A DNA stretch of 39,089 nt, taken from a virus. The stretch covers positions 1 through 39,089 of the IMG/VR virus record IMGVR_UViG_3300031576_000161. The stretch is one strand, 5' to 3'. The position numbers and the translations under genes are program-made. The notes under the pieces were generated by a model. It was given only the letters and a program-made list of their open reading frames with translations. It was not told where the DNA came from and made no database searches. Below are positions 4,730-16,785 of this stretch, piece after piece (positions within the stretch are counted from its first letter, which is position 1; each line of letters begins with the position of its first letter).

Positions 4730-5457
4730 ACGCAATTATTAAGTATTTAACACTACTGTCAGCTTTCACATATTTAACGGCGACCCTGGGTTTTTGCCTT
4801 CAGATGCGATCTGATTTGGTTCGTCCCTCAATTAGCGTCGGCGGCACTGAGATAACGAGTACTGGCAACATAGAACTTGTCGGCGGATCAACCGTAGCTG
4901 CCAATGGTTCCATCACGATATCGACATCTGCCACGGCTGCTGAGGCTTCGCTCCAGGATAGGATACTTTTCGACAGCACAAGTCTTAAAATATGCAGAAA
5001 CACGAGCCCTATGTTGGAGTTCTATCGAGCAAACGGAACTCAATCCTCAACTATAGATTCCGCTGGAGGGACATTAAGTATTTTATCAAAAGAAGCTTCA
5101 AGCATTATTATCATAGACAATCCCGGCCAATCGCAAGCAATCAGAATTGACGCGACGGGGCACCTTGGTCTTAACAACACAACCATCCAGGCTGCGGTAC
5201 ATGCGGCTGGAGTTGCAGGCGATAGCTATGTTGTCCAAGTGTCTAGTAATGACGGAACTGATCTTTTTACTGTCAATCATGAGGGGGGCACTGGTATATA
5301 CAGTAGGACGGTGGCTCAAATTGGACTTATAACTCCTAGAGCCGTAGGTGAGATGTTCTATTGTTCAAACTGCACGGCACTTAGAATGTGCATATCGACT
5401 GGAACTGTGGTGGGGTCTTTTGCTTCGCCTGTTGCGGCGACAACGGTCTGTAATTAA
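4726..5457 (+). CDS. secreted fibre-like protein with signal peptide
   Basis: The 243-residue product has a signal-peptide-like N-end (hydrophobic through about residue 24) and then a long Ser/Thr/Gly-rich beta region. That region contains SVGGTEITSTGN and a LDIT-like run of short strands, and resembles tail-fibre shafts. The C-terminal part carries MFYCSNC and a final Cys near the end, possibly disulfide-bonded outside the cytoplasm. It overlaps its upstream neighbour (ATGA). Signal peptides are not expected on ordinary tail fibres, so the protein may be exported separately. No family is assigned. Confidence 0.7.
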   Translation: MNAIIKYLTLLSAFTYLTATLGFCLQMRSDLVRPSISVGGTEITSTGNIELVGGSTVAANGSITISTSATAAEASLQDRILFDSTSLKICRNTSPMLEFYRANGTQSSTIDSAGGTLSILSKEASSIIIIDNPGQSQAIRIDATGHLGLNNTTIQAAVHAAGVAGDSYVVQVSSNDGTDLFTVNHEGGTGIYSRTVAQIGLITPRAVGEMFYCSNCTALRMCISTGTVVGSFASPVAATTVCN

Positions 5458-5458
5458 C

Positions 5459-5695
5459 ATGATCCAACGTATTCTTGAAATAGGATTAGGGATTGGGATA
5501 CTTGCCTTAGCCGCCTACATGCACAATTCAGAGCTAAAGCCGTTGCCTCTTGACATTGAGGAAAATTGCGCATATCAGGCTTTCGCCAGGGCTTCAATAC
5601 AGGTTCCACCAACGAAAGATGGATATGATCGGCATTCAAAATTAATCGGCTTCTATAATAAGGAGATCGAAAAATGCCAGAAATTGACTCCGTGA
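5459..5695 (+). CDS. small single-pass membrane protein (spanin-like partner?)
   Basis: The 78-residue product starts MIQRILEIGLGIGILALAAY, one N-terminal membrane segment, followed by a soluble tail with two cysteines. The ATG follows the previous stop by one base; an in-frame upstream start would overlap the previous gene. Its end overlaps a predicted lipoprotein by 22 bp in another frame. An inner-membrane protein overlapping a lipoprotein is the layout of Rz/Rz1 spanins, but both are short and the lysis genes lie 26 kb away, so this is tentative. Confidence 0.6.
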   Translation: MIQRILEIGLGIGILALAAYMHNSELKPLPLDIEENCAYQAFARASIQVPPTKDGYDRHSKLIGFYNKEIEKCQKLTP

Positions 5696-5892
5696 GCGCG
5701 GGCCTACTTGTCTTTGTCTTATTTTCCGTGGCGATGCTTTTTTCAGGCTGCGTTTCGGCCAGGAAGTATGATCGCTTGAGCGATGCGTGCAGTAAGCTTT
5801 CACGTAACTGCACTGAACTTATAGAGATCAATGAGGACCTGGAAAAACAGGTGTCCCATTGCGAGGCCGGGATAGGCGGACATGAGCTATGA
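5674..5892 (+). CDS. small predicted lipoprotein (o-spanin-like?)
   Basis: The 72-residue product has a hydrophobic N-region ending in LFSGC at residues 23-27 (a good lipobox). A heptad-like coiled-coil stretch (DRLSDACSKLSRN onward) with three further cysteines follows. GGAG precedes the ATG within the upstream gene. It overlaps the membrane-protein gene at its start and shares ATGA with the next gene. A lipid-anchored outer-membrane partner of the preceding protein is plausible; the family is not recognised. Confidence 0.6.
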   Translation: MPEIDSVSAGLLVFVLFSVAMLFSGCVSARKYDRLSDACSKLSRNCTELIEINEDLEKQVSHCEAGIGGHEL

Positions 5893-7955: not shown

Positions 7956-10295
7956 ATGGCTAGGGCAAAGAAAACAGATAACATAGACAAGGTAACCGGG
8001 GAAGTTTGGGATGCCATGGTGGACCATCTTCAAAAAACAGATGATGGGCATTCTCATGACGGGATAGATTCCAGGGTTGTTGCTATATCTAGCAATCTTG
8101 TCAGCCACAGCATTGGCGGAAATACCAGCGGAACCCTTGCGCTTATAAGCTCTGGCATTCTTCTTTTGGCTGGTGGTAATAACATAACTCTAAGCCAGGC
8201 CGCCAATACGATTACGCTATCCGCCGCCAGCCAAACAATACAGACTCAAAATAGATTTAACTTGACGTTAAGCGGAAACACGAGTGGCATATTAGCGGAA
8301 ATTTCTTCAGGCACGCTGACATTGGCCGGTGGGAATAATATTACCCTTTCTCAAGCCGGCAATATAATCACAATCTCCGGCCCAACCACAGTTGCCCAAT
8401 CCGTTGAAAGCCAATCTATCGGAATGTCGAATATTGGCAATACTGTTGGAACTACCGGGATGGCTAGTGGTGGGCAGGTCCAGTTTGTTTTTGCTGGCGG
8501 CAACAACATCACGCTAAGTCAATCCCTTAATGGAGCCTCTGGAACGATATCAATTTCAGCTTTTAATCAAACAGCCCCCGTTGTATCCAATGCCATCCAG
8601 AGTGTCGGTTCTGCCACAAACTCCGGGACTAATACAAGTAGATTCGCGGCTGACGATCATGCGCACGCAGGGGTGCCTGTTGCCGGTATCAGTGGAGGCA
8701 ATACCTTAGGGGACACTGGCTCTCGTTATGGCTCAGTTTTATTCGCCGGAGGCAATAACATTACATTGTCCGGTGCTACTGCTGCCGGCGGCCAAACCAT
8801 AACCATCTCAGCTTTTAATCAAAGCGTGCAGGCCATTGGTACGCAAACGCTCGGTATGAGCAATCTTGGCAATACATCTGGAACCACAGGTACGGCCACT
8901 GGAACAGGAGTTCAGTTCTTGTTCGCAGGAGGCAATAACATAACTCTGAGCCAGTCAATCAACGGGGCCTCCGGGACAATAACGATATCTGCGGCCAATG
9001 AAACGCAGACAGTCCCCCCAATAGGCACAGCCGTAAAAGAGGTTGCTTCTGCTGGTTCCACTGGTACGATTACCCGCTTTGCGCCAGAGGATCACGCGCA
9101 CAGAGGCTTGAACCTAATACAGATTACCGGCAACACATCAAACACTTCAAACATCGTTTACGGCTCTGTTTATCTTGCCGGTGGGAACAACATAACGCTG
9201 TCTCAGGTTTCAGGCGCAGGTGTCGCAACCATAACCATAAGCGCAGGCGCAGGTGGTGGTGCTGTTGTCTCAAACGCAATCCAAGAAGTTGCCAGTGCGA
9301 CCAATTCTGGCACAAACACCAGCAGATTCGCAGCAGACGACCACGCGCATAGGGGCATAAACCTAGTCCAGATATCCGGCAATACATCAAATACGAGTAA
9401 TGTAATTTACGGCTCCGTCTATCTAGCTGGTGGGAACAATATCACGCTGTCACAGGTTTCGGGAGCCGGTGCCGCAACAATAACCATAAGCGCAGCCAAT
9501 GCAGGGGCCGGTGCAGCCCGGTCTTTTTTTCAATGGCCTGACGATGTTGCCAATTCATCCGCCTGGCAAGTATCTGGATCAACACGGTGGCTAGAGCCGG
9601 TCTATATCCCATACGACATATCAGTGAGCTACATTAGGATGCCAGTTACAATGTCTTGCGTTGGAAGTATGGCGAGTGTGGCTACTGCGGCGAATGCAAC
9701 AAGGGGTATGACTCTTTCAAGCACTTTCCATTACGGATTTTATACGCACAATGTCGGAGCAAGCTCTAAAAGCCTAATCTCTTATGCCACAAGCTCTGGT
9801 TCTTGGGTTCAACAAGCCAGAGTAAGTGCCGGAGCAGTTGGTTCTAACTGGACAACCGGGCATACTATCTCATTCCCTAGAGAGGGCGGAAACACTGATT
9901 TTACTAGTTCAGCGGCGGCGACTGTAACGAACATAACCATGCAGTCATCTCAACTTTCTGATTTCACTAATCTCAGATTCCTAGACCTTCCATTTGCCAC
10001 ATCTTTATCCGCAGGTCCTTATTGGTTTATGTGGAATAGCTCAACATCAATCTCAACAAGTGGAACCGCGAATTACTCAACGCTGAGGATTTTAGCCAGC
10101 AACTTTGTCATTACTCAGCCAAGCCAAGCAATAAACATGTTGGGTTCGGCAACCAATTCTTCCAATCAATTTAGGCAGGGCCTTGGAAGTTGGACCACAA
10201 ATGCCATCGGGACTACGGCCTCTATAGCTCTTTCTGGAATCTCAACAAGCGCGTCTAATCCAATCGTCCATTTCCAAATGATAAGGCAAGCATGA
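7956..10295 (+). CDS. repeat-rich tail fibre / receptor-binding protein
   Basis: The 779-residue product has seven AGGNNITLS modules, most followed by an ITIS strand, and three RFA(A/P)(D/E)DHAH segments, between about residues 60 and 520. This periodic beta-shaft resembles phage fibres. The N-end (residues 1-45, KVTGEVWDAMVDHLQ) is the likely virion-attachment part. From about residue 525 (SFFQWPDDVANS) the sequence becomes non-repetitive and aromatic, a probable receptor-binding head. It begins two bases after the terminase stop and overlaps the following glycosyltransferase by four bases. Confidence 0.8.
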   Translation: MARAKKTDNIDKVTGEVWDAMVDHLQKTDDGHSHDGIDSRVVAISSNLVSHSIGGNTSGTLALISSGILLLAGGNNITLSQAANTITLSAASQTIQTQNRFNLTLSGNTSGILAEISSGTLTLAGGNNITLSQAGNIITISGPTTVAQSVESQSIGMSNIGNTVGTTGMASGGQVQFVFAGGNNITLSQSLNGASGTISISAFNQTAPVVSNAIQSVGSATNSGTNTSRFAADDHAHAGVPVAGISGGNTLGDTGSRYGSVLFAGGNNITLSGATAAGGQTITISAFNQSVQAIGTQTLGMSNLGNTSGTTGTATGTGVQFLFAGGNNITLSQSINGASGTITISAANETQTVPPIGTAVKEVASAGSTGTITRFAPEDHAHRGLNLIQITGNTSNTSNIVYGSVYLAGGNNITLSQVSGAGVATITISAGAGGGAVVSNAIQEVASATNSGTNTSRFAADDHAHRGINLVQISGNTSNTSNVIYGSVYLAGGNNITLSQVSGAGAATITISAANAGAGAARSFFQWPDDVANSSAWQVSGSTRWLEPVYIPYDISVSYIRMPVTMSCVGSMASVATAANATRGMTLSSTFHYGFYTHNVGASSKSLISYATSSGSWVQQARVSAGAVGSNWTTGHTISFPREGGNTDFTSSAAATVTNITMQSSQLSDFTNLRFLDLPFATSLSAGPYWFMWNSSTSISTSGTANYSTLRILASNFVITQPSQAINMLGSATNSSNQFRQGLGSWTTNAIGTTASIALSGISTSASNPIVHFQMIRQA

Positions 10296-15016: not shown

Positions 15017-15303
15017 ATGGCGTATAACACGCTACATACTAAAGGTCCCGCTAACGTTGATTCGCTTCTCGCTACTACGCGAGAAACGATTCTTCGGATG
15101 AAGGACTTCCTTCAAGATCAAATCTTTTTGAAGATTGGGCTCTTGAAGTTCTTACAGGAAAAAGCGCAATTGTCTAGCCAAGGTGGTAGCTCCATTTTGG
15201 TCCCGATAATGCAGGGGAAAAATAGCACCGTTGCTTCGTATTCTGGGGACGATGTGATCGACGTGACTGGACAGGAAGGCATGACGATGGCTGTTGGGCC
15301 CCT
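15017..15303 (+). CDS. major capsid protein, exon 1 (interrupted by group I intron)
   Basis: This is the N-terminal exon of the coat protein, about 95 residues, behind a GGAGGGG ribosome site. It reads through RMKDFLQDQIF, KIGLLKFLQE, DVIDVTGQEGMTMAVGP and, if unspliced, stops at 15319 after 100 residues. Related coat proteins continue with an aromatic-basic-Gln-Tyr strand and a TGQE..QNSGE helix. Exactly that (WRQYAGTITITGQE) appears at 16099 in a different frame. The exon end is placed after T15303 because group I introns follow a U, but 15291-15303 all remain possible. The joined protein is about 322 residues. Confidence 0.8.
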
Positions 15304-16100
15304 GGGAGTCTATGCCTAATTCTTTTTGCCAATGCGAGTGTGGTCAAGAAATTCCGGCCACTGATAATAGGGGACGCCCCAGGAAGTTTATAATGGGACA
15401 CCAAAATTATGGAAAGCATTGGTCTATTGAGGAAAGGAGAAAGGTATCAGAGAGAATGAGAGGGGCAAATAATTGGAATTGGAATCCAGACAGAAAAATG
15501 GTCGGCAGGCTTGGCCAGGGTTTTTCTAAAAGCCAAAGAAAAAAGCTATTAGGAAAATTCTGTATTGAATGCGGGACTGAGTATAATCTAATCCTCGATC
15601 ATAAGCTGCCAATTTTTGCTGGGGGAACCAATGATGATTCTAATGCTCAAACTCTCTGTGCTTCTTGCAATCAAATAAAAAGAACTTGGGAAATAAGCTT
15701 CTATGGAAAACTGGGTGAATTCAGAAAACGCCCCAATCCTAATTGGATGGGTAATTCTGAGCCAAACGAGGATGGAAACATTCTTGTAGGTGCGACGGCT
15801 AGTGGACGAGTCTATAAGCGACCGGCGACGAAATTGCTTGCGATAGAGTGTTTTTGCGATCAATGCAATGAGCGATATCTCGTTTCCGCATGGAGATTAA
15901 GGGGATACCGGACAAGACCTGCGCCTAAAAAACATTTTTGCTCAGATTCTTGCCGGCTATTATTCTTAAACCATAATCGTAAGACAGTAATTGCCACCAA
16001 GAGCGCCCGGCCCGAAAGGGATGATATAGCCTGGACTAACGGGAAACCGTTAGAAGCGGTGATAAAAAACTCCGCGATAACATGGCACGCAAGCCACATG
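15304..16100 (+). ncRNA. group I self-splicing intron in the capsid gene
   Basis: The catalytic core can be traced directly. P4 pairs TTCAGAA (15720-15726) with TTCTGAG (15755-15761). P5 is ATCC/GGAT flanked by CCC/GGG (15732-15751). P6a is CGAGGATG/CATTCTTG with a GAAA loop (15767-15786). P7 pairs GGCTA (15797-15801) with TAGCC (16027-16031) in the conserved GATGATATAG context. P9 is CTAACGG/CCGTTAG with a GAAA loop (16036-16053). P7 is usually GACTA/TAGTC; here both sides changed together. The Q and R segments resemble those of tRNA-Leu-type introns. P1, P3 and exact splice sites are not resolved, so both ends are approximate. Confidence 0.85.
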
Positions 16101-16145
16101 GAGACAGTACGCCGGCACGATCACGATTACCGGCCAGGAGATTAG
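15312..16145 (+). CDS. intron-encoded HNH homing endonuclease
   Basis: The 277-residue ORF lies in the capsid intron. Residues 6-30 hold an N-terminal Cys/His module (CQCECG then GH). The HNH nuclease is at 84-120: CIEC, LDHK with the catalytic His, N111 and CASCN. A further Cys-rich module follows at 180-214 (CFCDQC, CSDSC). Residues about 141-166 (NPNWMGNSEPN, GATASGRV) and the last 40 are translations of the intron core, so one DNA stretch serves both RNA fold and protein. The frame continues past the 3' splice site into the capsid exon. It presumably cuts intronless capsid genes to spread the intron. Confidence 0.85.
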   Translation: MPNSFCQCECGQEIPATDNRGRPRKFIMGHQNYGKHWSIEERRKVSERMRGANNWNWNPDRKMVGRLGQGFSKSQRKKLLGKFCIECGTEYNLILDHKLPIFAGGTNDDSNAQTLCASCNQIKRTWEISFYGKLGEFRKRPNPNWMGNSEPNEDGNILVGATASGRVYKRPATKLLAIECFCDQCNERYLVSAWRLRGYRTRPAPKKHFCSDSCRLLFLNHNRKTVIATKSARPERDDIAWTNGKPLEAVIKNSAITWHASHMETVRRHDHDYRPGD

Positions 16146-16785
16146 GCAAAACTCTGGGGAAAAGCTGATTGATATTACCAAAGCCAAAACTCAGCAGTTG
16201 CTTATGAGCATGAAAGACAAGATCAACATTGATCTTTTCGCTTCTTCACAGGGGGCGAAGGCAATTCATACTCTGCCTATCTTGGTTGACGCAACCAGCA
16301 CGGTGATGGATATTAACTCCAGCGCTAATAGTTGGTGGCAGGCACAGGTTATCGCAAGTGGCTCCTTCGCCGCTCGCGGACTTGCGGATATGCGGAATGG
16401 TCGCGATCTGTCAATGCAGCAGGGACAATCAGCACAACCTGCCCCTGACTTTATTGTGACGACTCGACTTGTCTATGAGCTTTATGAGGCGAGTCAGGTT
16501 CCCGGTATCCGGTACTCTGACGTTGGGATGGCGAATGCCGGCTTTGAGGCTCTTAAATTCGGGCCTGCCGTCATTGACTTCGACCCCAACGTTGCAACAG
16601 GGGAGATGTATATGCTCCCGTCCGACTCGCTAAAGTTGGTTGTCCATTCAGACGCCAACCTGAGCATTGGAGAGTTTAAGGAGCCGACGGATCAGGATGT
16701 TCGCTCTGCAAAGTGCTTATGGATGGGTAACTTGGTTACAACGAACCGGAGGCGCTTGGTTAAATTAACCGGCATCACGGCTTAA
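16101..16785 (+). CDS. major capsid protein, exon 2
   Basis: This exon gives about 227 residues after splicing. It begins at RQYAGTITITGQE and EIRQNSGEKLIDITKAK, a conserved strand-helix of this coat family. QQLLMSMKDKINIDLF, a SWWQAQVIASG stretch and a C-terminal VTTNRRRLVKL strand follow. In the genomic frame a TAA at 16084-16086 separates it from any upstream start, so translation needs splicing. A TTG at 16198 could only start a truncated protein. The exact first base depends on the 3' splice site (after G16100 or nearby). Confidence 0.8.

Follow-up and report, generated by a model that had tools for sequence, protein, structure and literature searches.

The PHROG_9953 major head protein gene of an apparently tailed phage is interrupted by a confirmed group I intron, apparently of IA type, with the core present and splicing predicted, and an HNH endonuclease reading frame runs through the guide, the core and the 3' splice site of this intron into the second exon. 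The window, by which we mean the whole stretch of DNA analysed, is a viral record 39,089 bases long with terminase, portal and head genes, and all features described in it lie on the + strand. We consider it likely that the insert is a mobile self-splicing intron whose endonuclease is made by restart on unspliced RNA, in competition with splicing, and which homes into intronless alleles.

The capsid gene lies in two frames, as the first-pass annotation had proposed: an ORF at 15017-15319 matches positions 19-86 of the PHROG_9953 (major head protein) model and the frame from 16099 matches positions 89-327. That annotation had also suggested aligning intronless homologues, and the alignment fixed both splice sites, using the intronless alleles L156 (52% identical) and L002 (47% identical). 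If the intron begins directly after U15292 and ends with G16089, the exons together encode QEGMTMAQATWRQYAG, compared with QEGMTMAQEPWRNAAA in L156 and QEGLTAAQYIWSQYAA in L002; at the junction itself GMTMAQATWR in the window faces GMTMAQEPWR in L156. Exon 1 contains 92 codons (15017-15292), the intron 797 nt (15293-16089, GATGGCT/GTTGGG ... GGCACG/CAAGCC), and exon 2 runs from 16090 to 16785, where QATWRQYAG aligns with QEPWRN (L156) and QYIWSQYAA (L002) and the conserved W is kept. The frame earlier assigned to exon 2 was right, but its start is 16090 and not 16099. Both exons are intact and in frame once joined at the codons GCT and CAA, with GATGGCT/CAAGCCAC as the expected exon-exon junction. 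In a comparison set of 98 capsid relatives, 97 align with the joined protein in a single piece and without gaps over the junction, the lone exception being L015, which bears its own intron. On unspliced RNA the capsid frame (15017-15319 in the ORF list) stops at TAA 15317-15319 after 100 residues, the truncated coat protein that had been correctly predicted. The alternative splice pairs 15303/16100, 15288/16085 and 15309/16103 keep the frame, but no guide pairs with them as well, and 15303/16100 and 15309/16103 also lose the conserved W.

In keeping with the group I end rule, exon 1 ends in a U (U15292) that pairs with guide nucleotide G15513, and the intron ends in G16089. The candidate guide GGCUUGGCCA (15508-15517) has moderate support as the partner of both exon ends: in a pairing scan 15513-15517 pair with UGGCU of exon 1 (15288-15292) as P1, and 15508-15512 with AAGCC of exon 2 (16091-16095) as P10. 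The score of these 5 + 5 pairs was equalled in 114 of 3000 dinucleotide shuffles (about 0.04) and is higher for the chosen splice pair than for the three others tried. The guide sits about 160 nt upstream of P2. A terminator-like hairpin with a T-run overlaps it at 15499-15517; one such element was found in the window where 1.6 are expected by chance.

Downstream of the guide, the P3/P7 pseudoknot, P4-P6 and P8 are present in order and every pair forms. A weak hairpin at 15681-15702 (z -0.9) matches P2 of family introns in position. The P3 5' strand CUGGGUG (15711-15717) is followed by the P4 strands UCAGA (15721-15725) and UCUGA (15756-15760), located by the family alignment and containing an A-U pair where the family mostly has G-C. 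These enclose the P5/P5a hairpin (15730-15752, fold z -1.9). P6 (15761-15763 with 15789-15791) carries P6a, a 9-bp hairpin with a GAAA loop (15766-15787, z -6.5). After the P7 5' strand and a long interval come the P3 3' strand CGCCCGG (16004-16010), the P8 hairpin CCC-GAAA-GGG (16011-16020), and J8/7 AUGAUA with the P7 3' strand UAGCCU (16021-16032). The last of these was placed by the family alignment and by a match to R1, a covariance model made from 28 phage introns with the P7 pairs left out. P9, a 7-bp hairpin with a GAAA loop (16036-16053, z -5.8), and a P9.1-like hairpin (16056-16075, z -2.4) follow. P4, P6a and P9, which had been drawn by eye, do form, as does P8. The subgroup IA trait P7.1/P7.2 occurs in the nearest introns; the P7.1-like hairpin of the window is weak (z 0.0), and the remainder is coding sequence.

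A covariance-model search, proposed earlier as a check, found the intron with RF00028 when run on 3 kb of sequence (41.8 bits, E 1.3e-8). This is under the curated 50 bits, a threshold that Rfam sets for searching and that does not define group I introns biologically. The score is probably lowered by the 202-nt segment between the P7 5' strand and the P3 3' strand. R1 matches the window with 52.1 bits (E 1.2e-12) and gives no credible match in the intronless relatives. When 31 distinct cores including that of the window were cut to their paired segments, 99.8% of the cells were paired. P3 showed 80 double-change cells in this family, a number reached in none of 500 shuffles, and a covariation score of 0.321, where shuffling left 0.071 and sliding of the strands no more than 0.071; five of its seven pairs have a double-sided change, with 100% pairing. 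The 7-bp P3 of the window fits this pattern, and we therefore assign P3 to 15711-15717 and 16004-16010. Rfam and R1 both place the P3 3' strand at about 15818; this placement was rejected because the family has this strand immediately 5' of P8 and J8/7, and because GGCUA pairs only with 16027-16031. The look-alike at 15817-15848, to which R1 aligned, resembles 16002-16029 in a local alignment (equalled in 24 of 2000 shuffles) and is perhaps a relic copy of P3-3'/P8/J8-7 from a duplication that accompanied the adjoining insert.

The HNH ORF was correctly read as passing through the insert in a third frame. It extends to 16145 from TTG 15294 (283 aa) or ATG 15312 (277 aa), and its HNH domain exceeds the Pfam cut-offs (PF01844, E 9.8e-8, 32.5 bits against 21.4; HNH_5, 29.3 against 27.5); 14 PHROG families match as well. 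The ATG overlaps the stop codon of the unspliced capsid frame (TATGCCTAA) and stands 3 nt behind a Shine-Dalgarno-like GGGAG (15304-15308). The ORF overlaps the core, as had been noted, but its extent had been underestimated: it covers the guide, P2-P9 and the 3' splice site, and then 56 nt of exon 2. Upstream of the guide it encodes an N-terminal Cys segment with a weak NUMOD3 match (E 0.04), and between the guide and P2/P3 the HNH domain (residues 84-124, 15561-15683). The protein read from P3 to P7 is KLGEFRKRPNPNWMGNSEPNEDGNILVGATAS, and from the P3 3' strand to P9.1 and beyond it begins with SARPERDDIAWTNGKPLEAV. The 202 nt between the P7 5' and P3 3' strands (15802-16003; about 35 nt in the family) encode a second Cys module, C180-x-C182-x2-C185 ... 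C210-x3-C214 (15849-15953), which matches no family above threshold. Such a module had been noticed before between the two P7 strands; more exactly, it lies between P7-5' and P3-3' in the P7.1/P7.2 region.

Between P3 and the stop, 147 codons are open, a stretch that none of 3000 dinucleotide shuffles left open. A pattern scan of IMG/VR returned at least 120 stretches, with 111 distinct introns among the matches listed; the pattern is blind to introns with other P6/P7 flanks, and its counts are not frequencies for all introns. HNH ORFs enter P4-P7 in four of these 111 (L046, L092, L114 and L129), and none continues past P9. No full-length homologue of the HNH protein was found: searches with peptide patterns gave none in IMG/VR or genome contigs, and the matches among phages and plasmids were confined to part of the protein near the HNH domain. 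One of these, in Cellulophaga phage phi19:1, covers residues 84-175 at 36% identity, at a locus without intron signal. AlphaFold on the single HNH sequence gave a pLDDT of 33, too low to be informative.

In the mechanism we propose, the precursor RNA would fold, with the guide forming P1 and P10 beside the P3-P9 core, and would bind free guanosine at P7; removal of 15293-16089 would then join GCT to CAA and give a normal-length capsid protein. Ribosomes on unspliced RNA would meet the stop codon 27 nt into the intron and release a capsid fragment of 100 residues. Because the HNH AUG overlaps the stop of this frame, the endonuclease is probably made by reinitiation, some ribosomes restarting at AUG 15312 behind GGGAG in a layout typical of translational coupling. 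The spacing of this Shine-Dalgarno-like sequence, at only 3 nt, is short and counts against such coupling. Overlapping start and stop codons of phage homing endonucleases have been taken to suggest coupling, and translation of I-TevI from inside its intron is reported to hinder splicing (PMC2988022). Restarting ribosomes would unwind the guide and the core and read past the 3' splice site, 56 nt into exon 2, and since a translated precursor could not fold, splicing and endonuclease synthesis would be mutually exclusive on each RNA, which would yield either endonuclease or capsid mRNA but never both. The endonuclease would cut intronless capsid alleles, and the intron would spread. On this model splicing may gate capsid production, as the first-pass annotation had suggested, and the shared segment may, as was also suggested there, be constrained both as RNA fold and as protein.

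Other introns occur in the same capsid gene. L015 (IMG/VR contig 3300005573_000342) has PHROG_9953 matches on both sides of a group I intron (R1 70.3 bits, E 9e-17; RF00028 84.1 bits), at a site that appears to lie about 25 nt downstream of the window's. Its ORF (4310/4349-4984) crosses the whole core without a stop, in the frame that the window ORF also uses (KLGEF...NTEPS...SAQAERQDIV), and the layout is alike: read on unspliced RNA, the capsid frame ends at the splice site, and a Shine-Dalgarno-like AGAGG, an AUG and the nuclease ORF come next. The two differ in that L015 encodes a LAGLIDADG enzyme (PF00961, E 9e-8), has a canonical P7, and ends its ORF shortly before the 3' splice site. 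This full overlap with an unrelated nuclease points either to repeated origins of the arrangement or to nuclease swaps upstream of a shared core. L018 (about 5452-5710) and L019 carry an identical group I-like insert of ~259 nt at another site of the gene, which R1 matches with 26.5 bits (E 1.1e-5) and Rfam does not match even at E 10. Its P7 is GCAUA/UAUGC (C265-G310, A266-U309, with A261 kept), so that altered P7 pairs occur more than once among these capsid introns. Separately, L149 (minus strand, ORF 8493-9926 of the reverse complement) has a capsid-like upstream frame of 478 aa that passes through P4-P7 of an intron core and ends at P7-3', and the viral contig L155 (3731-3813, + strand) contains a type II hammerhead ribozyme match of 36.5 bits, just under the 37-bit threshold.

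Several other explanations of the insert were considered. If it were a decayed intron, the P7 change and the long inserts would mark a loss of splicing and a broken capsid gene; the unusual P7, the score under the Rfam threshold and the possible relic duplicate of P3-3'/P8 could be read in this way, but the core helices are all intact, the P4 and P7 differences are compensated, the exons are intact and in frame when joined, and a major capsid gene is hardly dispensable, and we regard decay as improbable. A non-intron HNH insertion like that of ShiLan (PMC11855218) would look alike from outside, since there too an HNH gene, with flanking zinc fingers, lies within its host gene in another frame. 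The ShiLan host frame stays open and RNAweasel finds no intron domain there (PMC11855218), whereas in the window the host frame closes 27 nt into an insert that contains a complete group I core, and we find this explanation very hard to credit. Equally little can be said for a foreign intron joined into the capsid gene during assembly: although the window is one metagenomic contig and a second copy of the intron was not found, the boundaries agree to the base with the reading frame, the relatives' protein and the guide.

It is unlikely, though it deserves serious attention, that the intron splices while its ORF is open past the HNH domain by accident, the core-encoded residues being a passive tail. 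The four listed viral introns named above have HNH ORFs that enter P4-P7 and then stop, every conserved core motif closes one of the three frames and leaves few choices of frame, and no homologue of the HNH protein was found in which the C-terminal, core-encoded part is conserved. Against this reading stand the 147 open codons and their shuffles, the Cys module carried in the same frame by extra sequence that the RNA does not need, and the ORF of L015, which is likewise open through the whole core.

The guanosine site of the intron is also altered. In the solved structure, this site (Tetrahymena numbering) is a stack of base triples that includes A261-A265-U310 (PMC10020454). The window has G261 (15794), A262, a bulged C263 and the P7 5' strand GGCUA (15797-15801), where the family has A261 and GACUA. 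The G264-C311 pair is present (G15797-C16031), and the 265-310 pair is G-C (G15798-C16030) instead of A-U. The compensated change GGCTA/TAGCC that had been reported is real but was incompletely described, as three positions differ: 261 besides 265 and 310. Relative to the family codons in the same frame, these changes give Ala to Ala, Thr to Ala and Val to Ala in the ORF. The three changes apparently convert the A-A-U triple of the guanosine site into G-G-C. An exchange of G-G-C for A-A-U is known from a tRNA base triple (position 9 with 12-23).

A261 occurs with A265 in 111 of 111 viral introns among the IMG/VR matches listed, and every P7 3' strand found among them is TAGTC or begins with it. 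Scans that demanded canonical flanks were run for G-C at 265-310 (GGCTA/TAGCC); those of IMG/VR returned 9, 0 and 1 stretches and that of genome contigs returned 5, with no introns among them, and in IMG/VR nothing came up for any non-A-U pair at 265-310. Among bacterial Rfam matches, where 34 further loci were left unassigned by the motif rule, 24 of the 26 assignable introns have A-U with A261, and G-U appears in one credible case (L292) and one doubtful one (locus L261). L292 is a group I intron in a bacterial genome with an apparent G265-U310 wobble (AGAGGCCA / ATGGTCC) and A261 kept; such a wobble is possibly a step between A-U and G-C. In the open-access literature, with subscription papers outside the scope, we found no description of G261/G265-C310.

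We propose, tentatively and with slightly less than even confidence, that the guanosine site was rebuilt in nature from A261-A265-U310 to G261-G265-C310 by three matching changes in coding RNA, and that the capsid introns of this phage group, L018/L019 included, may be a pocket of altered guanosine sites under-detected by Rfam. Unrelated drift or sequencing error at 261, 265 and 310 is a doubtful but not negligible alternative. A261 is kept in L292 and, beside C265-G310, in L018, and as 261 does not always follow a changed P7 pair, strict covariation of the triple is weakened. In the window, however, 265 and 310 still form a Watson-Crick pair and their contact in the solved structure, 261, has also changed from A to G (PMC10020454), at a position that is A together with A265 in all the listed viral introns.

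The window presents an extreme natural case in which one stretch of nucleic acid would be both ribozyme core and gene, and in which the choice between splicing and translation would offer a simple, testable control over the gene of the principal virion protein. With P7 varying naturally at a contact seen in solved ribozyme structures, one can test how position 261 and the A-A-U triple contribute to the use of guanosine. Overlap of an endonuclease ORF with a group I core is a documented arrangement and not new in kind (PMC3984707, PMC3428280; I-TevI, PMC2988022), and capsid-gene introns are also known (PMC3706429). The overlap goes further here in being complete from guide to exon 2 and in having a counterpart with a different class of nuclease in the same gene, and the guanosine-site triple is changed as well.

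The I-PfoP3I intron in the DNA polymerase gene of cyanophage Pf-WMP3 (group IA2) is likewise a phage group IA intron with an HNH ORF, which begins in P6a, spans the P7 region and contributes to P6a, P6, P7, P7.1 and P7.2 (PMC3428280); the window ORF spans the guide, P2-P9 and the 3' splice site, and its host is a capsid gene. The major capsid gene intron of LittleE (mycobacteriophage cluster J), for which splicing was shown by RT-PCR and N-terminal sequencing, also has an endonuclease ORF, but this is LAGLIDADG-like and on the opposite strand, and the capsid is of HK97 type (PMC3706429). In the T4 td intron, the 3' end of the I-TevI ORF lies in the core and the hindrance of splicing by translation is answered by controlled expression, as we envisage for the window; I-TevI lies mostly within one loop, has a late promoter of its own and carries a hairpin that covers its ribosome-binding site (PMC2988022), whereas control in the window would be exerted by translational coupling to exon 1.
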